From Desulfuromonadales bacterium (GTDB lineage Bacteria; Desulfobacterota; JAENJC01), in assembly GCA_919902985.1 (NCBI GenBank), contig CAKKSC010000043.1, forward strand, positions 1 to 45,378: DNA of 45,378 bases. The letters run 5' to 3'. Shown piece after piece: positions 4,943 to 42,886 of this stretch. Under the pieces are notes generated by a model. That model had not been told where the DNA came from. It made no database searches and was given only the letters and a program-made list of their open reading frames with translations. Each line of letters begins with the position of its first letter. Position 1 is the stretch's first letter. The position numbers and the translations under genes are program-made.

Positions 4943-5734
4943 ATGAGAAAGTCCGAATCCGTCTTTAGAAAATCTCTTTTCCTGTTCGTAATAATGCTTA
5001 TAATCTCAGTTTCCTCATCCTCAGCCTTAACGGCCCCGGAGTTTTCTTTACATGGCGAGGATGATAAGGTTTACAGGCTTGAGGATTTTAAGGGCAAGCC
5101 CCTCATCCTCTTTTTCTTCTCCTTTTCCTGCGGCCACTGCGAAAGGGCAATGCCTGGAATCAAAGAACTATATGAAAACTCTAACGGAAGATATAATATC
5201 CTTGGAGTTGTATACGGCGCTCCGAAAGAGGGTATGAAAGATAAAATAATAGAAACCGGAACAGAGTTCCCTGTTGCCAAAGGAACGAGGAAAATCAGGG
5301 AGGATTATAAGGTCGGCGGCACCCCGTATATATGGGTCATAGGTGCTGATGGGACACTGAAAGAGAGATTTGTTGGGGAGAGAGGGGCAGAGATGCTAAA
5401 AGAGGGAGTGAAGGAGGAGTCAAGAGTCGGCCTGTTTGAACTCTCTTCAGACCCAAAAGGTCATGAAGGCAAAGATATTGAAACAGGCGGCCTCTTGATC
5501 CAGACATCTCCTTCTTATTTCCCAAAACCAGTATTTATGATTACCAACGGCACAGATAAGGTCCGGGTGTCTCCCTGGCTTCCGCTGGAAGTCGCACCTT
5601 CGCCAAAGGGCTTAAAGAAACATAGGAAAAAAGTCATGAGCGACTTTTTGGACAAATATGTTATTATCTCAGGAAAGGTTGTATTGGAAGACAGGAAACC
5701 TTTTATCGAGGTGAAGGATGCGAAAACAGAATAG
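4943..5734 (+). CDS. TlpA-like thioredoxin fused to a C-terminal OB-like domain
   Basis: 263 residues. A hydrophobic signal (residues 10-30) is followed by a TlpA/AhpC-type thioredoxin fold: an [13 protein letters not shown] strand, the [14 protein letters not shown] motif, the redox pair CGHC at residues 63-66 and a cis-Pro GGTPY. The C-terminal third (from about residue 170) is an extra domain ending in a pattern ([12 protein letters not shown]...PFIEV) typical of small OB-fold domains. It probably acts as a periplasmic thiol reductant or isomerase; the window also has another TlpA (35999) and CcdA (43323) that could feed it electrons. There is no clear Shine-Dalgarno; TATAAT at 4929-4934 sits eight bases before the ATG. 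It overlaps the next gene by 17 bases. Confidence 0.85.
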
Positions 5735-7856
5735 AAGCCGTGGGTCATGGGTTATGGGTTATGGGTTATGGGTAATTAAACCCATCACCTGTCACCTATC
5801 ACCTGTCGCCAGACTTTTCACGTCTCACGTCTTACGTCTCACGTTCCTTACACTTTGCACTTTGCATTTTGCAATTTGCAGCTCTGCCTCCGCTGCCCCG
5901 CACATAACCAGAGGTAAGCCTGAGCCACCTTCAAAGGTCGGGAAGCATCTTTCGGAGCGGATGAAGGCGAAGATGTTTGCCCCTATGCTGGCCAACGCGA
6001 CTACAGGCACTGTAAAGGTGCTGTTTCTGAAGGTTGATTTCCCCGCAGACACGGATATATCTACTACTGGTGACGGGACATGGGCTGACCCTGCCTATGC
6101 CAATAGCGGCAAATCAGATTTTTGGATAAACAATAACAAGATTGGTTTCGAAAATTACTACAATGAGGTTTCTTTTGGCCAACTTACGTTACAGGTTGAT
6201 GTCTTCCCTTCCGCACCGGGGACTGCCTATCGTCTGAGCAATCCCATGGTGAGTTATGGCAACGAATCTGGTACGGCGTTAGGAAACCTTATTTCTGAAA
6301 GCATAACCAAGGCAGATACTGATATCGACTTCAGTCAGTACCAGGCTGTCCTCATTGTCCATGCCGGTCCGGGAGAAGAGACGGACACCGCCTCAAATAC
6401 GTCTAATGACTTATGGTCTCTTTATTGGTCACAATCAACGACTATCGTCACTGCGGATGGCAAGGCATTCAGCGAGGCCATCATCATGCCCCAGACAGGG
6501 ACACAGGACGGCGGCACCGTTGATCCGCTCGGCATATATGTCCATGAGTTCGGCCACTGGCTCGGCCTTCCTGACCTCTATTATACTGACTCTTTTCCGC
6601 CCTATCTCTGGGACGGTGTGGGGAAATGGAGCCTGATGGGGGACGGGATATATCTTGGCTCTCCTCAAGGGAGTTCTCCAGCTCACCTTGATGCATGGTG
6701 CAAGACATATCTGGGGTGGGTAACACCTGATACGATGTCAACGTTTGTCAATTCCGCTAATCCTGGTGACCCTGGCGCTGCTTTATTAGCTCCTGTTGAG
6801 ACGAACAAACGGATCATCAAGCTCCCTGCAAGCACAACTACTCCGTCCCAGTATTTTCTGCTTGAAAACAGACAGAAGACACTTTTTGATTCGGACCTTC
6901 CAGGGAGCGGACTTCTTGTATGGCTGATAGATGAAGCCGTCATAAATGGCAATATGGCAGACAATTCCGTTAACAATAATCCTTTAAGGCCTGGAGTTAA
7001 GCTCATAGAGGCAGATGGGAATAACGATCTGATGAGCTATGGCGGTGATTACGGCGGCCCCGGCGATCCGTTCCCGGGAACTTCCAACAATATCTTATTT
7101 ACCCCATACACCAATCCTGCATCAACTCCAAATTTAGGTTTTGCCTGGCTATACCTTAAATATATAGCTGTTTCAGGTTCCAATATAAGCACAACCATAG
7201 GATTTGCCCCTGCCCCCCCTGTCCTTACGGTATCTGCCAACTCCAGCGCACTCCTGACCTGGAATGTTGTCAGCGATGCAACGTCATACAGGCTTTATAA
7301 AAACGCTGGTCTACAACCCATTGCTGAAACGAATCAAACACAATACACCGACGGTAACGCTGTAAACGGAGATAAATACTCCATTACGGCTATAGATAGC
7401 AGCGGATACGAAAGCGCTAAGTCAGCTTCAGCTACTGTTGTTTTTAGCAGTGGTGGCGGTAGTGTAGGCGGCGGATGTTTTATTGCAACGGCTGCATACG
7501 GTTCATATGAGGCGCCTTACGTTAAGATATTAAGGGAGTTCAGGGACAACTACCTCTTAAAGAGTTTTGAGCTTCGAGTTTTGAGTTTCGAGTTTGATGT
7601 CCCAAACATTTTAGGAAGGACATTTGTAAAGGCCTACTACAGGATAAGCCCGCCGATAGCTGATTTTATAAGGGAAAGCGAGGTCCTGAAATTCCTTGTG
7701 CGGATTGTCCTTCTGCCGCTGATAGGGATGGCGGCGTTTCTGGTGAAGGCCACCTTTTTGCAGAAATGTGTCGCTTTCGGTGTATTGATAATTGGACAGA
7801 CATTTATTGTCCACAGATTACACAGACCGCTCAGAGTAACTCAGATAGAAGGCTAA
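5718..7856 (+). CDS. M6-family zinc metalloprotease with CFI-box C-terminus
   Basis: 712 residues; the start is supported by GAGGTGAAGG just upstream. The first 60 residues, including the signal peptide core, are encoded by tandem heptamers (5744-5879). The catalytic domain carries [13 protein letters not shown] with zinc ligands H276, H280 and the following aspartate, plus the WSLMGDG motif of M6 (immune inhibitor A-like) peptidases. Then come a fibronectin III-like domain (about 495-575), a Gly linker and a C-terminal [10 protein letters not shown] segment with [10 protein letters not shown], the conserved tail known from NCBI as the CFI-box type. A 12-residue stretch made of GAGTTTY heptamers is inserted within that tail. 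It is probably secreted and is a plausible client of the type II system at 24471-35280 (inference). Confidence 0.92.
5744..5879 (+). repeat. Four consecutive heptamer families
   Basis: Four different imperfect tandem heptamer blocks in one stretch: GTTATGG x4 (5744-5771), RTCACCT x3 (5784-5804), TCACGTC x4 (5818-5845) and ACTTTGC-like x4 (5852-5879). All are translated as the N-terminus of the M6 protease; the last block encodes the hydrophobic signal core. Confidence 0.9.
7562..7596 (+). repeat. GAGTTTY heptamer tract inside a gene
   Basis: Five tandem heptamers GAGTTTT, GAGCTTC, GAGTTTT, GAGTTTC, GAGTTTG. They lie between the YLL and the ILGRTFV parts of the conserved CFI-box tail, where related proteins have only a few residues, so this looks like an in-frame insertion. 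Confidence 0.85.
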
Positions 7857-7939: not shown

Positions 7940-10183
7940 GTGATCTCCTTCAAAAGGAAAAAACTTGTTTTTGGCGCTGTAATCGCCCTTATCACCGCTC
8001 TCATGGTCAATATGGTTTTCTACTACGGCCTTTTTGATGAGCTGGAGTTGAAGGCCTTCGACTTACGGGAAAAGTACTTCAGCGGGAGTAGACGCCCTGC
8101 TGATGAGATTGCAGTGATACTGGTGGACGAGGCATCCCTCCGGGCAATGAATCCAGTTGTGGGAAGGTGGCCGTGGCCAAGGTCATTACATGCAGACGTT
8201 GTGGACTTCCTGGCGATGAGCGGTGCGAAGGCCGTTTTGTTCGATATACTGTTTACTGAAAACGAGAGGGTCTTTGGAACACCCAAGGGTGTCCTGGCGC
8301 CAAGTGATGAGAGGCTTGTGGAGTCTACAGCCTCGGCAGGCAATGTATACCATGCCGCTCAGATAGTGATAGACGAGGAGGATGAATACAATAAGAGCCT
8401 CCTGAACAGGCCAATACCGAAAGATTTTTCCGGGCGCTTCTCGGTGGAGCTAAAAGGAGCTCCTCTTAGCGGGCACAACAACTACTACCTTCCCTTTAAG
8501 GAGCTTTACACAGCTTCAAAGGGGACAGGAATCGTGGAGTTCCTGCCGGACTCAGACGGGGTATACAGGAGGACCAAGCTCTTCCGGCATTACCGGGGTA
8601 GCTTTTATCCTGTCCTCCCTATGTCGCCTCTGCTGGATATTATTAAACCAGATTCCATCAGACAAGAAGGAGATAGAATCGTTTTCGGCGTTCAGGAGGG
8701 CAGCCAAGCGGGTTTGCCCCTCCAACCCAAAACTCAAAACTCAGAACTCAGAACTCTTGAGGTTCCTCTTCAGAAAGACGGCTCATACCTAATAAAAATG
8801 TACGGGGACTTCAAGCCTTATTCCATGAGTGGTGTCCTTGCCTCTATACAGAAGATAAAGATGGGGGAGCTGGAGGGGCTGCCTGTAGGCCCTGATGAGT
8901 TTAGGGACAAGGTTGTATTTATTGGGGGAAGCGCCGTAGGTATTGAGGACCTGAAGCCGACCTCAATGGGAAGCAACACCCCCGGCGTTTACCTCCATGC
9001 CTCGGTATACAGTAATATCATTCAGGGCAGCTTCTTGAGATATACAGGCCCTCTCATGACGTTATTATCAATTCTGGCACTCTCCATTACTGTGACCGTT
9101 GCAATATTGTGGAGCCGGAATATAATATATTATCAGTTAGGAGTGCCGTTCCTCCTGGCATTTGTGTATATATCGGCATCCTTCTGGTGGTTCAGGCATA
9201 ATATAGTGTTCGATATAGTCGCGCCAACGATCTCAATTGTCATTTCGTGGATGGGTTCTTTTGCGTACCTGAGTATCACAGAGGGTAAGGACAAGAGGAA
9301 GATAAAGAAGATGCTTTCCCAGTATGTGTCGCCCTCGATACTTTCCACGCTGATCGACAAGTCTCCTGAGGATGTGTTAAAGGCTGAGGTTGGAACGAGG
9401 GAGACTTTGACGATCCTATTTTCAGATATAAGAGGGTTTACCTCCATATCCGAACAGTTTGAGGCCGAGAAAGTTGTAGATATCCTGAATGGTTATCTCT
9501 CAGGGATGGTGGATGTAATTTTTATGCATGAGGGAACTCTGGATAAGTTCATCGGAGATGCAATCATGGCATTTTGGGGCGCTCCTATAAGAGTGAGAGA
9601 CCATGGAATGAGGGCTGTAGAGACCGCCATTGATATGATACGTCAGCTCGAGGTATATAACGAGGGGCTTAAGGCAAAGGGGATGTCGCCGCTCTCTATA
9701 GGTATAGGCATAAATACCGGAGATGTTATTTTAGGCAATATCGGTTCCGAGAAAAAACTTGACTACACTGTAATAGGTGATAATGTTAATCTCGCTTCCA
9801 GGATGGAAGGGCTTACAAAGGAGTATGGCTGCCCCGTCCTCATCACTGAATCTACCTATAAAGAGGTTCATGATATGATACATTGCAGGGTTGTGGATAT
9901 TGTGAGAGTAAAAGGAAAAACAAAGGGGATCAAGATATTTGAACCACTGATTGCAATAAAGGGTGGGGAAGGATTATTTGAAAGAGTTATCTCTCTCTCC
10001 GAAGAAGGTTTTGATTATTACCTGAACCGGGACTGGGAAAGGGCTAAAGAAAAGTATTCAGAGCTCCTTTTGGTTAAACCTGACGACAAGGTGGGCAGGA
10101 TCTTTATTGAGAGATGTGAAGAATATAAGGTTAACGAGGCGCCGGAAGACTGGGATGGAGTTTATACGATGATGAGGAAATAG
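7940..10183 (+). CDS. CHASE2-domain class III adenylate/guanylate cyclase
   Basis: 747 residues starting with GTG, supported by AAGGTG at 7929-7934. One N-terminal membrane helix (residues 8-28) leads to an extracytoplasmic CHASE2 sensor (about 30-365), then two or three membrane helices (about 370-445) and a class III nucleotide cyclase domain (about 490-670). Metal-binding aspartates are in FSDIRGFTS and DKFIGDAIMAFWGAP; GDNVNLASRME carries the transition-state Asn/Arg. The C-terminus has a short TPR-like helical tail. It should make cAMP (or cGMP) in response to an external signal. A four-unit heptamer tract (8729-8756) adds a PKTQNSELRT stretch inside the sensor. Heptamers follow directly after the stop. 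Confidence 0.95.
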   Translation: MISFKRKKLVFGAVIALITALMVNMVFYYGLFDELELKAFDLREKYFSGSRRPADEIAVILVDEASLRAMNPVVGRWPWPRSLHADVVDFLAMSGAKAVLFDILFTENERVFGTPKGVLAPSDERLVESTASAGNVYHAAQIVIDEEDEYNKSLLNRPIPKDFSGRFSVELKGAPLSGHNNYYLPFKELYTASKGTGIVEFLPDSDGVYRRTKLFRHYRGSFYPVLPMSPLLDIIKPDSIRQEGDRIVFGVQEGSQAGLPLQPKTQNSELRTLEVPLQKDGSYLIKMYGDFKPYSMSGVLASIQKIKMGELEGLPVGPDEFRDKVVFIGGSAVGIEDLKPTSMGSNTPGVYLHASVYSNIIQGSFLRYTGPLMTLLSILALSITVTVAILWSRNIIYYQLGVPFLLAFVYISASFWWFRHNIVFDIVAPTISIVISWMGSFAYLSITEGKDKRKIKKMLSQYVSPSILSTLIDKSPEDVLKAEVGTRETLTILFSDIRGFTSISEQFEAEKVVDILNGYLSGMVDVIFMHEGTLDKFIGDAIMAFWGAPIRVRDHGMRAVETAIDMIRQLEVYNEGLKAKGMSPLSIGIGINTGDVILGNIGSEKKLDYTVIGDNVNLASRMEGLTKEYGCPVLITESTYKEVHDMIHCRVVDIVRVKGKTKGIKIFEPLIAIKGGEGLFERVISLSEEGFDYYLNRDWERAKEKYSELLLVKPDDKVGRIFIERCEEYKVNEAPEDWDGVYTMMRK
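8729..8756 (-). repeat. Heptamer tract inside the CHASE2 sensor
   Basis: AAAACTC, AAAACTC, AGAACTC, AGAACTC: the reverse complement of the GAGTTTY family seen at 7562 and 42005. It is in frame within the cyclase gene and encodes a polar linker-like segment. Confidence 0.85.
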
Positions 10184-10580: not shown

Positions 10581-11085
10581 AATGTTGTCTCCAAATAAGA
10601 TTGTTTTGCATTTTGCAATTTGCATTTTGCAATTTGCAATGCTCACCCTTGCGGGTTGGGCGCAAGCTGCCGATCTTTATGTCCAGAGCGTAAAGGCGCC
10701 CATCCTGTCGGCTCCTTCCCTCGGCTCTCCGAAGGCAGCAGTGGCGACAAAGGGGGAATCACTTAAAGAGATTGAAAAGAAGGGGGACTGGTACAAAGTC
10801 AAATATAAAAATACTGCAGGATGGGTATCAAGACTCCTGGTCGGGGGTAAACCCCCAGCCAGGAAGGTCTCTATCCTTGAGGAAACTGAAGAACACGTCG
10901 AGAAAGGGGCCAGAAAAAGGGCATCGGCGTTTACTACCGCTGCGGCAGCAAGGGGGCTGGCGGAGGAGCGGGCAAGGCTCAGCGACAAGTTTAAGGTGGA
11001 TTACAACGGTGTGGAAATGATGGAGGCCATAAGGATCACCGATGAAGAGGCCTCAAGGTTTATCCAGGAGGGGGTGGGGAGATGA
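10573..11085 (+). CDS. Exported SH3-domain protein
   Basis: 170 residues; the start is the ATG at 10573, six bases after AGGAGG. The signal peptide core (IVLHFAICILQFAMLTLA) is largely written in TTTTGCA/ATTTGCA heptamers. Residues about 33-95 are a bacterial SH3 domain: LYVQSVKAPILSAPSLGS, a KKGDWYKVKY strand and TAGWVSRLLV. The rest is helical and charged, ending in EEASRFIQEGVGR. Such proteins bind cell-wall peptides or serve as periplasmic adaptors. The stop overlaps the start of the M48 protease (ATGA), so the two are translationally coupled and probably work together. Confidence 0.88.
   Translation: MSKMLSPNKIVLHFAICILQFAMLTLAGWAQAADLYVQSVKAPILSAPSLGSPKAAVATKGESLKEIEKKGDWYKVKYKNTAGWVSRLLVGGKPPARKVSILEETEEHVEKGARKRASAFTTAAAARGLAEERARLSDKFKVDYNGVEMMEAIRITDEEASRFIQEGVGR
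10604..10638 (+). repeat. TTTTGCA heptamers encoding a signal peptide
   Basis: Five units: TTTTGCA, TTTTGCA, ATTTGCA, TTTTGCA, ATTTGCA. They encode the hydrophobic core of the SH3 protein's signal peptide. Confidence 0.9.
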
Positions 11086-11948
11086 AAAAAAATGAAAATT
11101 GCACATTGAAAATTGCAAATTTTAAAATTATTCTTTTTGCATTTTGCATTTTGCATTTTGCACTTTGTAATATTGTTTTCGCCTCTGACGATTTCAGAAA
11201 GAGAGCTCCTCAGAGAGAAGAGACATTTTCAACTGAAGACGATGTAAAGGCTGAAGTGGTATTTGGGAGGGAGCTTGGCGCAAGGATTTTAGGACGCTAT
11301 TCGCTTTATGACGATAAGAACCTGACCAGATACCTGAACATGGTCGGAAAGGGGATAGCTCAAAATGCCGGCAGACCTGAGATAGAGTTCAGGTTTGCGG
11401 TTCTGGAAACCGATATGGTTAATGCCTTCGCAGCTCCAGGCGGATATATTTTCATAACAAAAGGGGCATTGAAGATGATGGATGATGAAGCAGAGCTGGC
11501 TGCTGTTCTGGCCCATGAGGTTGCCCATGTCACGGAAAAACATATAGTAAAGGAATTGAGCATCAAGGCAACTGACGATTCTGCAACTTCTGGCCTTGCA
11601 AGGGTTTTAGGAGGAGGCACTGATACCATGCGAGCGGTATTTACGCAGATGGTAGACAAGGCGGTGGAGATACTCTTTGAAAAAGGGTTGAAGAGACAGG
11701 ATGAGATGGACTCCGACCGGATAGCGATGATATTTACGGCAGATGCAGGTTACGACCCGACTGCCCTTTCAAGATATCTCAAAAAGATATCTTCTGCTGA
11801 AAAAGACACAAAACTTCTGACCGGGACCCATCCCACATTTGAGGAGCGGATAAAAGGCCTTAAGATGGTCCTTGCTGAAAACCTTTTGACCGATAAGAAA
11901 CAACCGATCGTTAAGGAGAGGTTTAATGAGAATGTCAGGATTAAGTAG
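11082..11948 (+). CDS. M48-family periplasmic zinc metalloprotease
   Basis: 288 residues. The signal peptide (FKIILFAFCILHFALCN) is encoded mainly by five ATTTTGC heptamers. The peptidase domain has the zinc site HEVAH at residues 145-149, the preceding AFAAPGGYIFITKGAL strand typical of BepA/YfgC and LoiP relatives, and the distal ligand region DEMDSDRIAM. The C-terminus has the THPTFEERIKGL motif common to this family. It likely degrades misassembled outer-membrane or periplasmic proteins. It overlaps the SH3 gene by four bases and the barrel gene by 23, placing it in a compact operon with an outer-membrane protein. Confidence 0.93.
   Translation: MKKNENCTLKIANFKIILFAFCILHFALCNIVFASDDFRKRAPQREETFSTEDDVKAEVVFGRELGARILGRYSLYDDKNLTRYLNMVGKGIAQNAGRPEIEFRFAVLETDMVNAFAAPGGYIFITKGALKMMDDEAELAAVLAHEVAHVTEKHIVKELSIKATDDSATSGLARVLGGGTDTMRAVFTQMVDKAVEILFEKGLKRQDEMDSDRIAMIFTADAGYDPTALSRYLKKISSAEKDTKLLTGTHPTFEERIKGLKMVLAENLLTDKKQPIVKERFNENVRIK
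11134..11168 (+). repeat. ATTTTGC heptamers encoding a signal peptide
   Basis: TTTTTGC, ATTTTGC x3, ACTTTGT. About 30 bases upstream, units of the complementary type (GCACATT, GAAAATT, GCAAATT) run in the opposite sense, so the two blocks could pair. Confidence 0.88.
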
Positions 11949-13284
11949 AAGATTAATTATCAATTATCAATTGCCCATTGGTTCATTGCTCATTGCTCAT
12001 TGCTCATTGCTCATTGCTATATTTGCCGTTCCGGCTTTCGCTGATGAATACCACTACAACAATATCCTTATCGGCGACAGGGCCGCCGGCATGGCTGGGG
12101 CATACACAGCCATTTCAGACGACCCTTCCGGCCTATATTACAACCCTGCCGGCATCGTATTCGCCCCTGGCAGGAGCTTCTCGGCCAGTGTCAACGCCTA
12201 TCAATATTCAAAGAAGACCTATAAGGACGTACTGGGCGGCAATGGGTGGGACCGTGTATCTTCAAACCTCCTGCCTAATTACTTTGGCGTTATCCAACCT
12301 CTCGGTGCAGGGAAGATTGGCTTCTCCTATGCAGTACCGGATACGAGACAGGAGAACCAGGCACAGACATTCTACAACCTCCCAGGTGTAGATCCTGTAA
12401 CCCAGCAGCCAATAACCATTACACGCTATGTAATAAATATGAATGATACCGATTATACATACAATTTTGGCCCGTCATATGCCCTGAAAATAAACGATAA
12501 CCTGTCGGTTGGGGCCACTGCCTATATGCAATACAGGGACAGGCAACTCATAAGCAACCACTTTGTCGCCGTAGACGATAACCTGTCTGTAGCGGGCGAT
12601 GAAAGGTACCAGTGGCGAAACGTCTATAACTCTACTACAGAGTGGGGAGTAAAACCGATCATTGGAGTGATGTGGACACCGACGGAAAAGGTATCGCTTG
12701 GCTTCACTGGCTCAAAAAGCATTATGTTTGAAAGCAAGAGACGTATACAGAACACTCTGCGGGACCTGGACTACGGAAGCAACCTCCCTGACTATGAGGT
12801 ATGGGAATCTAAAGGCAACAGGGAGTTCCCCCTGACAGCCAGCTTCGGGGCAGCCTACTTCCCCTCGGAGAGTCTCCTTCTCTCTGCCGATATCAGCTAT
12901 TACACCGCAGCATCTTACACCTTGAACTTCAAGAACATATCATCAGGCGCCACCGCAGCATTATACACTCCTCAATCTGAGACCGTTAATGCGGCTATTG
13001 GCGCAGAGTATTATCCCAGCGCAAGGATAGCGCTAAGGAGTGGATTGTTTACAAACATGGCGAATACTCCGATGCTGACTACAAGAGATGCAAACGAGCC
13101 GGAACATATAGATATGTATGGAGCAAGCCTGAGCATAAGCCATTTTACTCGTTCTTCGTCTCTGACCTTTGGCGGCAGCTACTCTTATGGGACAGGTAAA
13201 TCGCATATATTCGGTGATACTTCAATACAGAATGTAGAGATGCAGAACATAACGGCATTTCTCTCCGCTGCATTCAGCTATTGA
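11926..13284 (+). CDS. FadL/OmpP1-like outer-membrane beta-barrel
   Basis: 452 residues from the ATG at 11926, supported by TTAAGGAGAGG. The signal peptide contains HCSLLIA repeats because its core is encoded by five CATTGCT heptamers (11984-12018). The mature N-terminus, IGDRAAGMAGAYTAISDD, then SGLYYNPAGIVF, is the plug-region signature of the FadL/OmpP1 and related hydrocarbon-transport barrels. The rest has alternating beta-strands (FGVIQPLGAGKIGFSYAV, LSVGATAYMQYRD, VSLGFTGSKS) and ends in an aromatic residue (AFSY), as expected for BAM-assembled barrels. It is probably a pore for a hydrophobic substrate. It follows the M48 protease in the same operon. Confidence 0.88.
   Translation: MRMSGLSRRLIINYQLPIGSLLIAHCSLLIAIFAVPAFADEYHYNNILIGDRAAGMAGAYTAISDDPSGLYYNPAGIVFAPGRSFSASVNAYQYSKKTYKDVLGGNGWDRVSSNLLPNYFGVIQPLGAGKIGFSYAVPDTRQENQAQTFYNLPGVDPVTQQPITITRYVINMNDTDYTYNFGPSYALKINDNLSVGATAYMQYRDRQLISNHFVAVDDNLSVAGDERYQWRNVYNSTTEWGVKPIIGVMWTPTEKVSLGFTGSKSIMFESKRRIQNTLRDLDYGSNLPDYEVWESKGNREFPLTASFGAAYFPSESLLLSADISYYTAASYTLNFKNISSGATAALYTPQSETVNAAIGAEYYPSARIALRSGLFTNMANTPMLTTRDANEPEHIDMYGASLSISHFTRSSSLTFGGSYSYGTGKSHIFGDTSIQNVEMQNITAFLSAAFSY
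11984..12018 (+). repeat. CATTGCT perfect heptamer tract
   Basis: Five perfect copies of CATTGCT, preceded by AATTATC x2 and degenerate units from 11955. Three units translate to HCSLLIA, a hydrophobic heptapeptide. This is the least diverged tract in the window, so possibly the youngest. Confidence 0.93.
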
Positions 13285-17500: not shown

Positions 17501-17970
17501 ATGAAGAAAAAATCCTCTCCAAGGCTCAAGTCCTTTTCATATAACGGTTCTTTTGCATACAGCTTGACACATTATGCACTCATAAGCGGAATGGCCACCT
17601 GAATTCAGCAGAGTTGATCTCCGTGATTCTCAGGAGATTGAAAGAATCAGCCAGTAGATATTGTTTTTATGTGATTGCCTACACATTTATGCCGGACCAC
17701 CTGCATATCCTCGTTAGAGGAGAGGAAGGCTCAGATCTTAAAAGGTTTGGTCGGCATTTTAAGCAGACGAGCGGATACGATTTTAAAAAGCGGCATGGAG
17801 AACCATTGTGGCATCTTAGTTATTATGACCATATCCTTAGAAAGGACGAGGATATCATAGCAACGGCAAGATATATCCTTGAAAATCCTGTGAGAAAAGG
17901 CCTTGTAAAAGAATTTCGTGATTATCCATTTTCAGGGTCGTTTGAATATGATGTCGCAGAAATGCTTTGA
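17501..17970 (+). pseudogene. REP-associated tyrosine transposase (RAYT), frameshifted
   Basis: Starting at ATG 17501 the first frame reads MKKKSSPRLKSFSYNGSFAY, the usual RAYT beginning, and stops near 17601. The next frame continues from about 17569 with TLCTHKRNGHLNSAELISVI, then AYTFMPDHLHILV (the HUH-like histidine pair), KQTSGYDFKK, LSYYDHILRKDEDII with the likely catalytic tyrosine, and ENPVRKGLV. The shift falls between about 17564 and 17580. Y1 transposases of this class recognise GTAG-footed REP hairpins, which is exactly what flanks it: the TGA stop shares its last base with the REP at 17970. The frameshift may have inactivated it; a shorter product from TTG at 17614 would keep both motifs. 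Confidence 0.88.
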
Positions 17971-25244: not shown

Positions 25245-26913
25245 GTCAAATTTCAAATTTCAAATTACAAATTTCAAATTGGTGCTCTTCGCATTTTGCA
25301 TTTTACATTTTGCACTTTGCATTCCATCCTTTTCCGAAACAAACCCTCCCAAGGCCGTTAAGGTGGATTTCAAGGAGGTGGAGCTTCCTGTATTCATACG
25401 TCTTGTGAGTGATGTAACAGGAAAGAACTTTACATTCGACGAAAAGGTGACTGGAAAAGTTACTGTCATTTCTCCGAAAGAGGTCTCTGTAGATGAGCTT
25501 TATCAGCTCTTTATCTCGGTTTTACAGTTTAAAGGTTTCACCACAGTCCCTTCAGACAACGTTACACAGATAATTCCACTGAGCGATGCAAAGCAGAACT
25601 GGACTCAGGTACTCACAGAAGAAAAAGGAGAAGGCTTTGTGACAAGGCTTATGCCCCTTGCATACCTTAACGCAAATGAAGGAGTCCGCGTGCTGACCCC
25701 TTTGATCTCACGAAACGGGGTCATAAATGCATACATCCAGACAAACACCATCATCCTGACCGACACAGCCATGAACGCTGAAAGGCTTGTAGCCCTTCTT
25801 ACCGCCCTTGATAAGGAGGCCCCGCCGGGGAAAGGGAAGATCAACGTATACCCTCTGGAAAACGCAGAGGCGGAAGATGTCTCAAAAACGCTGACAGCAT
25901 TGTTCTCAAGGCTTCAACCCGGCCAGCAGCCGGGGGGGAGCATGGGGCTTACCGGTCCTGTAAATATTTCAGCAGACAAGGCCACAAACTCCCTGGTGAT
26001 AACGTCTGCCCCGGAGGACTATGACTCCGTCAGGGAGGTCATAGGAAAGCTCGACCTGAGGCGCAGGCAGGTATATGTGGAAGCGGCCATTATGGAGATA
26101 TCCCTTTCAAAGATGAAGGAGATGGGGGTTGAGTTCAGGGCGACCGAACTGCCTGAAGCCGGAAAGATAACCGGTTTCGGAGGTACCAACTTTGGCGGCA
26201 TGGGCGCTGCTGTCTCAGGGCCTGCCGGAATGGCCGACCTGTCAGGAATGGCAGCCGGTGTGGTGCAGGGGACGATTACTTTCAGAGGCACCGAGTATAT
26301 GAACGTAGGCGCTCTTGTGAGGGCATTGCAGACAGGAGGGGACGTCAACGTCCTGTCAACGCCGCATCTCCTGACTACCGACAACCAGAAGGCTGAGATA
26401 GTTGTTGGTGAAAACGTCCCGTTTGTCACAGGACAGAGCCAGACAGCAGGGGGGAACGTCCTTACCACCATAGAGAGAAAGGACATAGGTATAACCCTTA
26501 GACTCACCCCGAGGGTCAGCGAAGGGGAGTTCGTCAAGCTGGACATATATCAGGAGATATCTTCCCTCACGGATTCTGCCGTTTTTGATCCAAACAAGGT
26601 CGGGCCTGTTGTAAATAAAAGATATGCCAGCACAACAGTAGTGGCAAAGGATGGCGAGACTATAGCCATAGGAGGCCTGCTCCGCGACAACGAGGTGAAG
26701 ATCGTGAGAAAGGTCCCTCTCCTGGGAGATATCCCCATACTCGGGTGGCTGTTCCGGTACCAGAGGAAGCAGGTGGAGAAGACCAACCTCCTGATATTCA
26801 TAACTCCCACCATAGTAAAGGGTAATGCCTTGAACGACATAACAGCAAAGAAGAAAAACGAAATGGACAAGTCAAAAGAAGAGATGGACGGGAAGAAAAA
26901 AAGTGAAAAGTGA
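25222..26913 (+). CDS. gspD: Type II secretion secretin GspD
   Basis: 563 residues from a GTG preceded by GGAGGGAG. The signal peptide core (LVLFAFCILHFALCI) is encoded by heptamers. N-terminal N0 domain (about 45-115), then N1/N2 repeats (TRLMPLAYLNANEGVRVL, NVYPLENAEAEDVSKTL), then the secretin barrel: VYVEAAIMEIS, VNVLSTPHLLTTDNQKAEIVVGENVPF, RLTPRVSEGEFVKLDIYQEIS and VPLLGDIPILGWLF, all hallmark GspD motifs. It is somewhat shorter than the 650-700 residues of enterobacterial GspD, so it may have one N domain fewer. The tail is lysine-rich. It forms the outer-membrane channel. Confidence 0.97.
   Translation: MLRSKFVKSNFKFQITNFKLVLFAFCILHFALCIPSFSETNPPKAVKVDFKEVELPVFIRLVSDVTGKNFTFDEKVTGKVTVISPKEVSVDELYQLFISVLQFKGFTTVPSDNVTQIIPLSDAKQNWTQVLTEEKGEGFVTRLMPLAYLNANEGVRVLTPLISRNGVINAYIQTNTIILTDTAMNAERLVALLTALDKEAPPGKGKINVYPLENAEAEDVSKTLTALFSRLQPGQQPGGSMGLTGPVNISADKATNSLVITSAPEDYDSVREVIGKLDLRRRQVYVEAAIMEISLSKMKEMGVEFRATELPEAGKITGFGGTNFGGMGAAVSGPAGMADLSGMAAGVVQGTITFRGTEYMNVGALVRALQTGGDVNVLSTPHLLTTDNQKAEIVVGENVPFVTGQSQTAGGNVLTTIERKDIGITLRLTPRVSEGEFVKLDIYQEISSLTDSAVFDPNKVGPVVNKRYASTTVVAKDGETIAIGGLLRDNEVKIVRKVPLLGDIPILGWLFRYQRKQVEKTNLLIFITPTIVKGNALNDITAKKKNEMDKSKEEMDGKKKSEK
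25247..25318 (+). repeat. Two heptamer tracts in the gspD signal region
   Basis: CAAATTT-type x5 (25247-25281) followed by GCATTTT-type x4 (25291-25318). Both are translated: the first gives FKFQITNFK, the second the hydrophobic signal core. Confidence 0.88.
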
Positions 26914-26941: not shown

Positions 26942-28444
26942 ATGGAACTATCAGATATAGACAGCAGCCTTATAAGACACCTCCCATTTTCTTACGCCAA
27001 GAGGTTTTTCCTTTTACCTGTAAGAAAGGAGGATGGCGCAGTTATCGTCGCCTCATCCCGTCCTGATGAGTTCCAGCCTATTGACGACCTGAGGCACCTG
27101 CTGAACTCCCCTGTCAGGCCTGTATTCATGGAAGAGAAGGCCCTGCTTGACCTGATAAACAGGGTTTATCACGAGGCAGCCAACAGCGAAGAAGGGACAA
27201 TGGTGATTGAGGATGCCTCAGAGGTCGAAGAGACGAGGGACCTCCTCGAATCAGACGACGAGGCCCCTGTGGTCCGGCTTGTAAATGCCCTCCTCTCTAA
27301 AGGCCTGCAGAAGAGGGCCAGCGACATACATTTCGAGCCGTTCGAGAAGGATGCGAGGGTCAGGCTCAGGGTTGACGGGATACTGCACGACATCCAGACG
27401 ATACAAAAGGGGCTCTATCCATCCGTGGTGTCGAGGGTGAAGGTCATAGCAGGGATGAACGTTGCGGAGAAGAGACTCCCGCAGGACGGAGGGATACGGG
27501 TCAGGATAGCAGGCAAGGACGTTGATATAAGGGCCTCAACAATACCCACATCTTCAGGGGAGAGGGTGGTACTCAGGCTCCTTGACAGGGAACGGGTGCT
27601 GATAGGACTGGAAGATCTTGGTCTGCAAGCTGAAATGCTTGATGGTTATGGAAGGATGCTGGCCAAGTCCCACGGGATCATCCTCATCACCGGGCCGACC
27701 GGGAGCGGGAAGACCACGACCCTTTACGCATCCCTTGCATCAATAAACTCATCGGAGAAAAATGTCCTTACAGTAGAGGACCCTATAGAATACCAGTTGA
27801 AAGGGATCGGTCAGATGCAGGTGAACCCCAAGGTGGGACTGACCTTTGCAAAAGGGCTCAGACATATCCTTAGACAGGACCCCGACATAATCATGGTTGG
27901 CGAGATAAGGGACAGGGAGACGGCGGAGATGGCAATTCAGTCAGCCCTTACAGGGCATCTTGTCCTCTCAACGCTTCACACCAACGACTCTGCAAGCGCT
28001 GTTACAAGGCTTGTGGACATGGGAATAGAGCCTTTTCTCGTTTCTTCGTCCCTCATAGCGGTCATGGCCCAGAGGCTTGTCAGGGTATTATGCCCAAGTT
28101 GTAAGGAGGCTTATGAACCGACTGAAGATGAACTGGCGCTGTTAGGAATCACCCCCCCCTTCCCCCCCTTAATAAGGGGGGGCGCAGGGGGGGTGGTCTT
28201 TTACAAAAAGGCCGGCTGTAGTGAGTGTCTTGGCACAGGGTATCTCGGCAGGAAAGGTATCTACGAACTCCTTGAGGTAGACGACGACATCCGCAAGGTC
28301 ATTCTCAATGGAGGCGATTCCATGACCATCAGGACAGAGGCCGATAAAAAAGGGATGAAGGGGATGATGGCAGACGGAGCCGATAAGATCATGCGGGGGA
28401 TAACATCGGTTGAAGAGGTGTTGAGGGTAACGCAGGAGGAGTGA
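26942..28444 (+). CDS. gspE: Type II secretion ATPase GspE
   Basis: 500 residues. N-terminal N1E domain, then the catalytic core: Walker A GPTGSGKTTTL near residues 251-261, Asp box and Walker B (ILRQDPDIIMVGEIRDRETA), His box (GHLVLSTLHTND), and the zinc-binding tetracysteine motif CPSC...CSEC near 383-425. It hydrolyses ATP to drive pseudopilus assembly at the inner membrane. Between the two cysteine pairs there is an extra stretch (TPPFPPLIRGGAGGV) encoded by a dispersed palindrome at 28152-28193; the frame is kept. The start is the ATG at 26942 with little ribosome-site evidence. Confidence 0.97.
   Translation: MELSDIDSSLIRHLPFSYAKRFFLLPVRKEDGAVIVASSRPDEFQPIDDLRHLLNSPVRPVFMEEKALLDLINRVYHEAANSEEGTMVIEDASEVEETRDLLESDDEAPVVRLVNALLSKGLQKRASDIHFEPFEKDARVRLRVDGILHDIQTIQKGLYPSVVSRVKVIAGMNVAEKRLPQDGGIRVRIAGKDVDIRASTIPTSSGERVVLRLLDRERVLIGLEDLGLQAEMLDGYGRMLAKSHGIILITGPTGSGKTTTLYASLASINSSEKNVLTVEDPIEYQLKGIGQMQVNPKVGLTFAKGLRHILRQDPDIIMVGEIRDRETAEMAIQSALTGHLVLSTLHTNDSASAVTRLVDMGIEPFLVSSSLIAVMAQRLVRVLCPSCKEAYEPTEDELALLGITPPFPPLIRGGAGGVVFYKKAGCSECLGTGYLGRKGIYELLEVDDDIRKVILNGGDSMTIRTEADKKGMKGMMADGADKIMRGITSVEEVLRVTQEE
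28152..28193. repeat. C/G-run palindrome inserted in gspE
   Basis: Runs of C around a CTTAATAAG centre then runs of G. The same element type is at 41274-41322 inside the YHS gene. It encodes a PPFPPLIRGGAGG-type stretch in the zinc-finger loop of GspE, absent from usual GspE proteins. Confidence 0.88.
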
Positions 28445-29767: not shown

Positions 29768-30232
29768 TTGATAATAAAAACAAATAAGAAAAACGATTCA
29801 CGGTTCACGGTTCACGGTTCACGTGGTTTCACCCTCATCGAGGTCATGGTTGTAGTCGTTATCCTTGGTATCCTGGCGGCGATTATAGTTCCGAGGATAA
29901 TGGGAAGACCTGAGGAGGCGAAGAGGACAAAGGCCGCTGTTGATATTAAGGGCGTTGAACAGGCCCTTAACCTCTACAAGCTCGACAATGGCATGTATCC
30001 GAACACCGAGCAGGGTCTTGAGGCCCTTGTTAATAAACCGGAAACAGCGCCTGTTCCAAACAAGTGGAAGGAAGGCGGCTATCTTTCCAAGGTCCCTTTG
30101 GACCCCTGGGGAAGGCCATACCAGTATCTTTCGCCTGGTGATCATGGCGACTTTGACCTCTACTCTCATGGAGCAGACGGAGAACCAGGCGGGGAAGGAA
30201 AGGATGCAGATGTGGAGAGCTGGAATCTTTAA
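29768..30232 (+). CDS. gspG: Major pseudopilin GspG
   Basis: 154 residues with a TTG start, chosen because GGAGGC lies five bases upstream. The leader (20 residues, basic) contains FTVHGSR, encoded by TTCACGG heptamers, and ends at the prepilin site RG|FTLIEVMVVVVILGILAA. The rest matches GspG: MGRPEEAKRTKAAVDIKGVE, LDNGMYPNTEQGLEALV, and the Ca-binding C-terminal loop (PGDHGDFDLYSHGADGEPGG). It forms the main pseudopilus fibre. The prepilin peptidase (GspO/PilD) is not in this window. Confidence 0.97.
   Translation: MIIKTNKKNDSRFTVHGSRGFTLIEVMVVVVILGILAAIIVPRIMGRPEEAKRTKAAVDIKGVEQALNLYKLDNGMYPNTEQGLEALVNKPETAPVPNKWKEGGYLSKVPLDPWGRPYQYLSPGDHGDFDLYSHGADGEPGGEGKDADVESWNL
29797..29824 (+). repeat. 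TTCACGG heptamers in the gspG leader
   Basis: TTCACGG x3 then TTCACGT. It encodes the residues just before the prepilin cleavage site. The same family is at 36534 and 41106. Confidence 0.9.
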
Positions 30233-30746
30233 ATCAACGAGGAGCAAGGAGTTAGGAGTAAGAAGTAAGAACTTAAACTCCTTGCCCCTCGCCCCTTGCT
30301 CCTTGCTTGAAAAGGGTTTCACATTAATCGAGCTTCTTGTTACCCTCTCAATCCTTTCAATCACCCTTTCTTTTGTTATCCCAAGGATCATGGGGAGGGA
30401 AGAGGCTGAACTGAAGAGCGCTGCGAGGAAGCTGTTATACACGGTAAGGAGGTTTTCGGACGAGGCAGTCTTCAAAAAGGAAAGACGGGTGCTTAACGTG
30501 GATATAGATAATAACGAGTATAGAAAAGGAGATGACGGCAAGAGGACTCAACTCCCTTCAGGGATATCTATAGACCATCTCCAGATTGGAAAGGAAGAGA
30601 TAAAAAAGGGGACGGCCTCCATAACCATCTTCCCGTCCGGTTTCAGGGATGAGGCAATGATACATCTGACAGGGAAAGAAAAAGGTAAAGGATATACCGT
30701 TGTCATTCCGGCCCTGGGGGAAAGATTTGAGATACGTGAAGACTAA
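30210..30746 (+). CDS. gspH: Minor pseudopilin GspH
   Basis: 178 residues from ATG 30210 (ATG 30204 is also possible), behind AAGGAAAGG inside the end of gspG. The leader is unusually long (about 34 residues) and is made of inverted heptamer blocks: GAGCAAG-type units, then CTTGCTC-type units (about 30240-30308). The prepilin motif is KG|FTLIELLVTLSILSITLS, followed by a GspH-like body (SAARKLLYTVRRFSDEAVF, NVDIDNNEYR). A minor pseudopilin at the fibre tip. Confidence 0.88.
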   Translation: MWRAGIFKSTRSKELGVRSKNLNSLPLAPCSLLEKGFTLIELLVTLSILSITLSFVIPRIMGREEAELKSAARKLLYTVRRFSDEAVFKKERRVLNVDIDNNEYRKGDDGKRTQLPSGISIDHLQIGKEEIKKGTASITIFPSGFRDEAMIHLTGKEKGKGYTVVIPALGERFEIRED

Positions 30747-31107: not shown

Positions 31108-31738
31108 AAGAGAACAGATAGAAGATGGGAAGATGAGAAGATGGGAGGTTGCGCACCCTCTCACCCTCTCACCCTCTCATCCGCTTAACTTCTCAACGTC
31201 TCGTGGCGGTTTTACCCTGATAGAGGTGCTCGTATCTGTTACCATCTTTGCCATAGTTATGTCGATCCTCTACAGCGCCTTTTCCACTTCATCTGCCAAT
31301 GCAAAGATTGTCGAGGGAATGGCTGATGACCTTTCCTCCCTCAGTGGGGCGCTGGATACTTTCAGCCATGAAGTAAGGGGAGCATATTTGATTTCAGATT
31401 CCTCTATGGAAGGTTTCTCAGGCAAAAAAGAGGGTATTACATTCACTACCACTACCCCTTATGTGAGAGATGGGGAGCCAACGGTTCAGTTGGTTTCGTA
31501 TATATTTGAAGAAGACAGTCTGATAAGAAGAGCCCTACGTCCCGGCTCCCAAAAAGAGGTGAAGGGTGAATATCTTCTCTTGGATGGGGTTAAAGACCCT
31601 GCGTTTTCCTTTTTTGACGGGAAGGGATGGATTGACGCCTGGCCTTATGGGAATAAGCTGCCTGCCGGGGTCAGGGTCGTTTTTTCGTATAAGGAACGGA
31701 ATGTGGAAAATGTGATACCTGTGTGGAGCAGGATGTGA
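31097..31738 (+). CDS. gspJ: Minor pseudopilin GspJ
   Basis: 213 residues from ATG 31097 (TTG 31082 is the alternative). The leader is long and contains two low-complexity blocks, a GATGGGA-type purine block and CACCCTCT octamers (31154-31180). The prepilin site is GG|FTLIEVLVSVTIFAIVMS, then the GspJ body: LSGALDTFSHEVRGAYLISDSS and LIRRALRPGS. The stop overlaps the next start (TGATG). Tip pseudopilin. Confidence 0.9.
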   Translation: MKDRREQIEDGKMRRWEVAHPLTLSPSHPLNFSTSRGGFTLIEVLVSVTIFAIVMSILYSAFSTSSANAKIVEGMADDLSSLSGALDTFSHEVRGAYLISDSSMEGFSGKKEGITFTTTTPYVRDGEPTVQLVSYIFEEDSLIRRALRPGSQKEVKGEYLLLDGVKDPAFSFFDGKGWIDAWPYGNKLPAGVRVVFSYKERNVENVIPVWSRM

Positions 31739-33628: not shown

Positions 33629-34644
33629 ATGCCGTGAGGAGTCGGAAGCAAAAACCGGAAGATAAGAGGCTGGGAAGATGGGAAGGTGGGCAATTTCTCA
33701 ATCTCTCAACTTCTCAGCTTCCTAACTTCTCATCGGCACGTCTCACGGCTTACGTCTCACGTCTCACGGGTTCTGAAAAAGGCATGGCCCTGCTCATGAC
33801 CATCCTTATAGTTGTTCTCCTCTCCCTTCTCATTATGGATATTAACGAGAGAAGCTACCTCGCCCTTACGAGGGCAAAAAACAGCGTGAACTCCCTGAAC
33901 GCCTCTTATATAATGAGGTCAGGTGTCAGTGCAGCCATGGGTTTTCTCGAATTAGACTCGAAAGGGAGCGCCGTTGACACCCTTACGGAGGAATGGGCAC
34001 AGGAGATAACGCGCTTTCCTGTTGGTGACGGTACTGTCTCCGTTCATATCATTGACGAGGCCTCAAAATTTAATATAAACACCCTTGTAAACCCCCAGGG
34101 AGGGATAAATGAAAAGGCGGTCGAAAGGTTTGGAAGGCTGTTAACGATAGCAGAACTTGAAGAGGGCCTTTCAAGGAGGGTCGCCGAATGGCTGCAGAAA
34201 AACAGGGAAGAGATTTCCTATTCGTTCACTGACATCTCTGAACTTCTTCTTGTCCCCGATTTTACCATTGATACCTTCAAAAAAATCGAGAGGTATATTA
34301 CCGTATACACTGATCGCAGAAACGAATTTAATATTAATATAAATACTGTCGGCAGAGAGGTTTTAACCGCGTTGTCCCCCAGTTTGAATGAGACGCTCGT
34401 TGAAGCTATACTTGAATATAGAAAGGAGCACCCTTTCAAGGTTGAACATGCCGGTGATCTAAGTCAGGTGACCGGCTTGAGCGACGCAACACTCAGGACA
34501 ACCTTTTCTGATGTCCTGGATGTAAAGAGCTCTGATTTTACTGTTCAGGTCGAGGCGAATGTGTCTGATACCCTAAGGAAGGGGATGGCGGCTGTTAAAA
34601 GGGGTGGCGATAAGGTAAAGCTGGCTGTATGGAAGGAAGAGTGA
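33625..34644 (+). CDS. gspK: Minor pseudopilin GspK, placed after gspM
   Basis: 339 residues from TTG 33625 (GTG 33634 is an alternative). About 50 leader residues precede the pseudopilin helix EKG|MALLMTILIVVLLSLLIM; they are encoded by low-complexity blocks (GGAAGAT-type, TTCTCAA-type, then TCACGTC heptamers near 33736-33770). The body matches GspK: INERSYLALTRAKNSVNSLNA, then FNINTLVNPQGG and FNININTVGREVLTALSPSL with the helix-hairpin-helix-like part. It caps the pseudopilus. In most operons gspK lies between gspJ and gspL; here it follows gspM. Confidence 0.92.
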   Translation: MNAVRSRKQKPEDKRLGRWEGGQFLNLSTSQLPNFSSARLTAYVSRLTGSEKGMALLMTILIVVLLSLLIMDINERSYLALTRAKNSVNSLNASYIMRSGVSAAMGFLELDSKGSAVDTLTEEWAQEITRFPVGDGTVSVHIIDEASKFNINTLVNPQGGINEKAVERFGRLLTIAELEEGLSRRVAEWLQKNREEISYSFTDISELLLVPDFTIDTFKKIERYITVYTDRRNEFNININTVGREVLTALSPSLNETLVEAILEYRKEHPFKVEHAGDLSQVTGLSDATLRTTFSDVLDVKSSDFTVQVEANVSDTLRKGMAAVKRGGDKVKLAVWKEE

Positions 34645-41998: not shown

Positions 41999-42886
41999 AT
42001 GAAAGTTTCGAGTTTCGGGTTTCGAGTTCCGAGTTTTATTTTACTTGCATCTTGCATCTTGCATCTTGCATCTAATTCTGCCCATGCCCATCTGCCCATG
42101 GAGACGGAATATGCAGAAACGCTGTCTAAGGACAGTTGGGAGGTAAGGTTCCACGGCGGATATATGGATATGTCCAACGGCGAGAACAACTGGATGAAGG
42201 AGCAGATGTATGAGCTCAGCGTAGGGTATGGCCTTACAAGAGACTTCTCTCTTTATATCCAGCCTACTTACAAAGTGAAAGAGATGAAGATGTCTGGTGG
42301 GGTGATCATGAAAGAAAGCGCCTCTGGGGTCGGAGATACGGATCTCCTTGCAAGATACAGGTTCAGGAAGAAGGACAGAGAGGACGGCTCTTGCCAACAG
42401 GCCATTCTTCTCGGCGTAAAACTCCCCACAGGGGCTTGGAACATAGAAGAAAACGGCACGAGGTTGATGGATATGGTCCAGCCAGGGACAGGTTCCACAG
42501 ATTACAGTGCAGGGTTTGCCGTTACACATAGGAAAGGCAACTTCACACTGGACGGAGATGTCATATATACGATCACTACAGAAAATCAGAAGAACTATAA
42601 GTTCGGGAATCTCCTCAGGTATGACCTGGCCGGACTCTATCAGATAGAAGACCTTTACCTCATGATGGAGTTGAACGGAAGGGTCACCGGGGAGGATGAG
42701 GTAAGCGGCATTGGACAGGACAACACCGGCGGGCATCAGATATTTATAAACCCAGGTGTCAGCTATCATATCCTGCCCAACCTGATGCTGATGCTGTCTG
42801 TCCAGGTTCCGATCTACACCGATATGAACGGTGAGGCACAGAAGACGAACTATCATGCGATGGGAGGATTGCATTGGTACTATTAA
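41999..42886 (+). CDS. Outer-membrane barrel (phenol-MetA-like transporter fold)
   Basis: 295 residues. Almost the whole signal peptide (VSSFGFRVPS, then LLASCILHLAS) is encoded by nine heptamers (42005-42071). The mature part consists of amphipathic strands: SWEVRFHGGYMDMSN, MYELSVGYGLTRDFSLYIQP, GVGDTDLLARYRFR, QAILLGVKLPTGAWN, STDYSAGFAVTHRKGNF, INPGVSYHILPNLMLMLSVQ, with a final aromatic (HWYY). The GVGDTDLLARYRF and LGVKLPTG motifs are typical of the putative outer-membrane transporter group that includes PF13557-like proteins. Located with YHS, HMA and CcdA genes, so a metal-related role is possible (inference). Confidence 0.85.
   Translation: MKVSSFGFRVPSFILLASCILHLASNSAHAHLPMETEYAETLSKDSWEVRFHGGYMDMSNGENNWMKEQMYELSVGYGLTRDFSLYIQPTYKVKEMKMSGGVIMKESASGVGDTDLLARYRFRKKDREDGSCQQAILLGVKLPTGAWNIEENGTRLMDMVQPGTGSTDYSAGFAVTHRKGNFTLDGDVIYTITTENQKNYKFGNLLRYDLAGLYQIEDLYLMMELNGRVTGEDEVSGIGQDNTGGHQIFINPGVSYHILPNLMLMLSVQVPIYTDMNGEAQKTNYHAMGGLHWYY
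42005..42071 (+). repeat. Nine heptamers encoding a signal peptide
   Basis: GTTTCGA, GTTTCGG, GTTTCGA, GTTCCGA (42005-42032), a short break, then four perfect CTTGCAT (42044-42071). Three CTTGCAT units translate to LASCILH. Confidence 0.92.

Follow-up and report, generated by a model that had tools for sequence, protein, structure and literature searches.

Stacked heptanucleotide arrays form the predicted signal peptide of an M6 metalloprotease and probably belong to a genus-wide population of in-frame inserts

The window analyzed here is a 45,378-nucleotide stretch that makes up contig 43 of a Desulfuromonadales genome of 2.13 Mb in 88 contigs; gene calls and start sites were made in this analysis and are approximate. 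On its forward strand, positions 5718-7856 encode a secreted M6-family metalloprotease (TIGR03296) with a CFI-box-CTERM domain. The open reading frame (ORF) starts at an ATG at 5718, with GAGGTG just before it, and its 5' end shares 17 bases with the 3' end of an upstream thioredoxin-like gene. Four blocks of seven-base tandem units, called with TRF and a lag-7 scan, are stacked in frame at 5741-5880, within a few bases of where a sequence-only reading had placed them (5744-5879), and no array of equal score arose in 370 kb of dinucleotide-model resamples. All four are described on the forward strand. Block 1 (5741-5776; TGGGTYA/GGGTTAT, 4.7 copies) encodes the n-region of the leader and is followed by block 2 (5785-5807; RTCACCT/TCACCTG, or TCACCTR, 3.3 copies), block 3 (5818-5844; TCACGTC, 3.9 copies), which encodes FTSHVLRLT, and block 4 (5848-5880; CACTTTG/CATTTTG/CAATTTG, 4.3 copies), which encodes a predicted hydrophobic core with a hydropathy of 1.93 over 11 residues. 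The leader, which begins MRKQNRSR, consists almost entirely of these blocks. By translation and composition, a predicted signal-peptide coding region spans residues 1-60 (5718-5897, forward strand) and ends in ASAA, immediately ahead of the mature M6 domain; inspection and hydropathy reveal the basic n-region, hydrophobic core and small-residue cleavage site of a Sec signal peptide. We therefore predict that the heptad stretch is the signal peptide of the metalloprotease. No ortholog covering this leader was found in the genomes of two congeners, G001 and G002. A second forward-strand array in the same ORF (GAGTTTY, 7562-7595) lies directly after the CFI box, and its slot holds AATTGCA units in G002 with total length identical.

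The sequence-only reading had regarded the four blocks as unrelated to one another. That description suits blocks 3 and 4, between which complementarity is absent, but not blocks 1 and 2, which pair in register as the purine-rich 5' arm and pyrimidine-rich 3' arm of an imperfect hairpin. In the DNA fold, six of every seven bases are paired and one is mismatched, around the center ATGGGT-AATTAA-ACCCAT. Compared with its own shuffles, the hairpin of blocks 1 and 2 alone is no stronger (z -0.9), but the whole stretch is stronger (z -4.2). Block 1 contains five GGG tracts, so that a G-quadruplex is possible there; G-runs are absent from blocks 2-4, and the stretch as a whole lacks the G-run in every one of at least four units that defines a GGGNATC-type quadruplex array. 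Rfam and tRNA scans of the window returned no matches, nor did viral contigs. Coding position, hairpin pairing, a dispersed population and the swapping of arrays at fixed slots had not figured in the earlier reading.

Similar arrays occur in many other genes of the window. An AACTCAA array lies in the CHASE2 part of a CHASE2-adenylate cyclase gene (8724-8756), with the same family present in G001 and absent from G002. On the forward strand, TTTTGCA units occupy the 5' leader of an SH3-domain protein (ORF 10549; 10604-10640), AAATTGC and TTTTGCA arrays the leader of an M48 peptidase (ORF 11082; 11096-11167), where G002 has a CAGGGGT array instead, and TCATTGC units the predicted signal peptide of a FadL-like outer-membrane protein (ORF 11926; 11970-12018), a slot filled by two other families in G001 and G002. 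An AGTTTCG/CTTGCAT pair forms the predicted signal peptide of ORF 41999 (42004-42073, forward strand). Arrays also occur in type II secretion (T2SS) genes, likewise read on the forward strand. The GspD secretin leader (25246-25321) takes its n-region and hydrophobic core from TCAAATT and TTTTGCA arrays, which are conserved at equal length in G001. Prepilin leaders carry ACGGTTC in GspG (29793-29823), an AGGAGTA/CCTTGCC pair in GspH (30240-30307; CAGTGGT elements in G001 and G002), the octad pair GAAGATGG/CACCCTCT in GspJ (31121-31202), and octad CAACTTCT plus heptad CACGTCT arrays in GspK (33691-33768). Curated family models of GspG, GspJ and GspK begin at residues 19, 42 and 51, which places the arrays within the part that prepilin peptidase removes. 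The gspI leader has no insert here and two different families in G001 and G002. The octads at 31121-31202 and 33691-33729 share the arm architecture of the heptads, and eight is the second preferred length in the genus.

GspE illustrates a different kind of site, an in-frame loop slot (28150-28197, forward strand). Its occupant in this genome is a CCCCCCCTT palindrome; G001 has ACGTCTC heptads there, and G002 a hairpin of CAGTGGT/ACCGGCC heptads. This loop is variable in general, as judged by alignment with 25 relatives, and within the C-terminal region the confidence of an AlphaFold2 model of the G002 protein is lowest here (residues 408-425). The palindrome found here (CCCCCCCTT...AAGGGGGGG) is pyrimidine-first, an arm order opposite to that of the heptad hairpins, and represents another class of insert.

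We counted arrays over 1.31 Mb, of which this genome contributes 757 kb, G001 326 kb and G002 227 kb. Judged by GspE, the closest named relative is 'Nitrospinae bacterium RIFCSPHIGHO2_02_FULL_39_82' (77% identity), with all others below 60%. Arrays of period 7, 14 or 21 number 166 (72, 69 and 25 in the three genomes), against 29 of period 8 or 16, 4 of period 10, 11 or 13, and 0 in shuffles, and so unit lengths are far from evenly spread over 5-10 bases. A similar preference appears across 80 GspE loci of many phyla, an unselected set totaling 1.24 Mb, with 40 arrays at 7, 14 or 21, one each at 8, 10 and 11, and otherwise nearly all multiples of three. Density differs, with one array per 31 kb in the unselected loci versus one per 5-10 kb in the genus. 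The sequence-only reading had proposed a mechanism that measures seven bases rather than the spread of a repeat; its first half agrees with the strong preference for seven, but its second half does not, as unit families recur within genomes. Nor is the idea of seven bases being measured new. According to the accounts in PMC4679880 and PMC4692102, Mrazek et al. (2007) found heptanucleotides to be the most abundant of 5-11 base units in most prokaryote genomes, and, as the former relates, proposed seven as the length contacted by DNA polymerase.

This proposal leads to the possibility that the arrays arise by replication slippage alone, de novo at chance seeds, with the polymerase or another duplex-holding contact favoring realignment in seven-base steps. 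The dominance of seven across unrelated genomes that share no unit vocabulary, and eight as the next commonest length, would fit. Yet unit families recur within a genome far more often than chance would allow: in the three genomes, 13%, 8% and 24% of pairs of arrays differ by no more than one mismatch, versus about 2% with shuffled units. Same-family orthologs are mostly identical in length, and slippage offers no account of paired purine-first arms or of whole-array swaps at slots. We thus consider pure slippage unlikely. That the length is common across bacteria while the words are not suggests that length comes from something general and the words from copying within a lineage. A common spacer, CAGCAAAGATC, marks such copying but is limited to T2SS contigs. 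The T2SS operon suggested that families spread locally, but the 40 pairs counted within 6 kb do not differ significantly from the 34 expected. In unselected loci, the sharing of units across phyla does not exceed what composition predicts (3 exact versus 4). Unit sharing exceeds chance only in genomes of the phylum that had been picked for sharing another family (14 versus 3.8). The CAGKGGT pattern occurs in 18 of 297 genomes of the phylum and CACGTYT in 5.

Adjoining arrays have a marked polarity. Within the genus, 37 pairs run purine then pyrimidine, none run in reverse, 6 are pyrimidine-pyrimidine and 2 purine-purine, in genes and spacers alike. Because a purine-first order is its own reverse complement, this polarity is valid on both strands. 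It is a strong bias and not a law: among 15 oriented pairs outside the genus, 12 are purine-first and 3 pyrimidine-first, which rules out a universal rule. Arm complementarity averages 0.67, versus 0.51 between arms of different sites, and many pairs are not complementary. One could imagine that these palindromes serve as portable leader peptides: an enzyme would extend each 3' end of a break with purine-rich heptads, and the two ends would then be joined head to head. Such joining would yield the purine-then-pyrimidine order on either strand; in genes that order would encode first an n-region rich in lysine and then a core rich in Phe, Leu and Ala, a ready-made signal peptide, and the lineage would renew its export signals through a side reaction of break repair with a fixed seven-base step. 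We regard this scenario as a long shot.

Comparison of orthologous slots reveals how the arrays change. Nucleotide identity between genes of the three species is about 87%, and yet unique orthologous coding comparisons yield 17 cases with different arrays, 9 with the same family, 2 empty and 11 with other sequence. Of 30 changed coding slots, 24 differ in length by a multiple of three (P=2e-7), and at the gspE, gspH and gspI slots inserts differ or are absent among the three species. An assembly artifact is unlikely, since the inserts are in frame and consistent with their genes in three separate assemblies. Same-family arrays of sister species mostly keep their length, and replacement of the whole array is the main change; because the GspD, GspG and M48 arrays retain their exact length between species, change in unit number is slow relative to replacement. 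Junctions inspected by eye for shared ends displayed neither target-site duplications nor conserved ends, so insertion is deduced from present/absent comparisons.

These exchanges bear on two further explanations. Heptad arrays in 5' coding regions, with a unit that is not a multiple of three and a sense frame that is mostly stop-free (94 of 107 arrays), are what one might expect of phase-variable contingency loci, where gain or loss of heptads would alter the reading frame and so turn exported proteins on and off, as for the heptanucleotide of neuO. But the arrays are short and imperfect, those of GspD, GspG and M48 keep their exact unit number between species, and housekeeping proteins and loops are among the sites, all of which makes phase variation very unlikely. 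Absence of stops is itself uninformative as a sign of selection, random heptamers being 66% stop-free on one strand.

Alternatively, the elements could be mobile REP/MITE-type palindromes moved by a transposase, for example of the Y1 (TnpA/RAYT-like) kind, with the heptads a form of internal wear. Their hairpin form, dispersal and presence or absence at orthologous sites all speak for this, as does the common center of two elements at neighboring junctions in G001; the genome also has seven Y1 transposase matches, one of them a domain within the window (17572-17880). However, there are no ends or loop common to the elements, and we saw no target-site duplications. Many arm pairs join different families, some arrays stand single without a partner, and well-defined REP-like elements of GGGGACAGTCCC type exist separately from the heptads. 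We judge this explanation distinctly improbable. As to REP/RAYT elements, which combine a conserved palindrome, a tetranucleotide tag beside the hairpin and a Y1 transposase, the genome has the transposases, though nothing ties them to the arrays, and a common tag was not seen at junctions inspected by eye. The two G001 elements are long AAAGGTC/CCTTTTA hairpins with differing unit numbers at the gspD/E and gspE/F junctions (locus L137, 7625-7771 and 9264-9439); the gspE/F junction of G002 has no insert. REP-like elements of GGGGACAGTCCC...GGGACTGTCCCC type are present or absent at orthologous sites (L170, 10946-11015; L149, 1686-1758), and long palindromes of AACCACAGAG...CTCTGTGGTT type also occur (L187, 7898-8022).

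Across the three genomes, 165 array sites divide into 47 N-terminal with an upstream start codon, 11 N-terminal without one, 33 internal, 4 near the C-terminus and 70 intergenic, versus 17, 3, 44, 9 and 25% expected for random placement in those classes. About 58% of sites are thus within genes, with a bias to 5' leaders and gene junctions. For period-7 sites, 49 of 124 are N-terminal coding (21% expected, P=1e-6) and 27 of 124 internal (44% expected, P=1e-7). Intergenic arrays often start no more than a few bases from an upstream stop codon, and several hairpins fold better than shuffles, as might be expected of transcription terminators or regulatory RNA hairpins between genes. Such a role is nonetheless hard to reconcile with the majority of sites being within genes and with the many sites in one co-directional T2SS operon. 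Nor are convergent junctions favored: array-bearing intergenic junctions are 45 tandem, 5 divergent and 4 convergent, versus 69, 19 and 12% of intergenic bases. We therefore hold terminators or regulatory hairpins to be most improbable. Within leaders, 22 of 58 with arrays reach a hydropathy of at least 2.0, versus 25% of average gene starts. Since leaders with arrays thus exceed the average in hydrophobicity by a small margin, their use appears to reflect tolerance and not design; tolerance, and not export, would account for most of them, and we reject the signal peptide as the general function of the arrays.

Period, coding position, hairpin geometry, polarity and in-frame replacement can be read from the DNA itself; that the leaders work as export signals is our inference. 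The explanation we favor, and consider probable, is that the signal peptide of the exported M6 metalloprotease arose from heptad-array inserts that were stacked in the 5' end of its gene and belong to a genus-wide population resembling Rickettsia palindromic elements. An element would consist of one or two arrays, each of about four to five seven-base units, often a purine arm and then a pyrimidine arm that form an imperfect hairpin. Elements would enter genes in frame, as Rickettsia palindromic elements do, and would persist where the extra peptide is harmless: in cleaved signal peptides, prepilin leaders, disordered loops and gene junctions. At the same slots they would be gained, lost and replaced by unrelated families over short evolutionary times. 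They would multiply when existing arrays are copied into new sites, for instance during break repair, combined with slippage in seven-base steps.

Why seven is the preferred long repeat unit of bacteria has been a question since 2007, and here it is made comparative. Because the same slot carries different heptads in sister species that are about 87% identical, one can date when arrays were gained or replaced and trace where they came from. In our view the main interest lies in how unlike heptads replace one another in frame at fixed slots and survive as leader peptides. Repeat inserts appear to be used as, or at least to survive as, signal peptides and prepilin leaders, which could be a direct route for non-coding repeats to become export signals. 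Many leaders of this kind may have escaped recognition by gene callers and in protein databases.

Rickettsia palindromic elements, which PMC1950309 mentions, are in-frame palindromic inserts in genes and spacers, tolerated in exposed parts of proteins, and form defined sequence families of about 100-150 bp. The elements described here resemble them as in-frame palindromic inserts in genes whose orthologs lack them (GspE, GspI and other slots). They differ from Rickettsia elements, as those are described, in having no conserved sequence, many unrelated units and variable loops, with only the heptad build and the arm order in common. PARCEL repeats are likewise dyad-symmetric, located inside ORFs, punctate in distribution and found in membrane-targeted proteins, but they constitute a 25-residue repeat domain with one motif, in contrast to the seven-base units and many motifs found here. 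With the heptanucleotide simple sequence repeats (SSRs) of the Mrazek class our arrays share an excess of exactly seven-base tandem units. The expectation that such repeats be mainly non-coding, seven not being a multiple of three, does not hold here, with more sites inside ORFs than outside, and the arrays differ further in being imperfect, in their purine-pyrimidine hairpins, in their frequent position in coding leaders and in the in-frame swapping of units between sister species. Imperfection, hairpin pairing, coding leaders and in-frame unit swapping are absent from the heptanucleotide-SSR descriptions consulted (PMC4679880, PMC4692102). TAACTGA direct repeats of Beggiatoaceae (PMC4679880) and GGGNATC repeats of Xanthomonas and Nostoc (PMC4692102) are abundant short heptad arrays, mostly of 2-6 units, near gene ends or starts. 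In those systems there are one or a few families per genome, mainly intergenic, whereas here there are dozens of families of a single unit length and more than half of the sites are coding. Finally, in neuO of E. coli K1 (PMC13001214) and hmw1A of Haemophilus (PMC8262952) a change in heptanucleotide number switches expression. Those genes also carry heptad arrays at the 5' end or upstream, but the arrays described here are short and degenerate, and their unit number remains stable between species.
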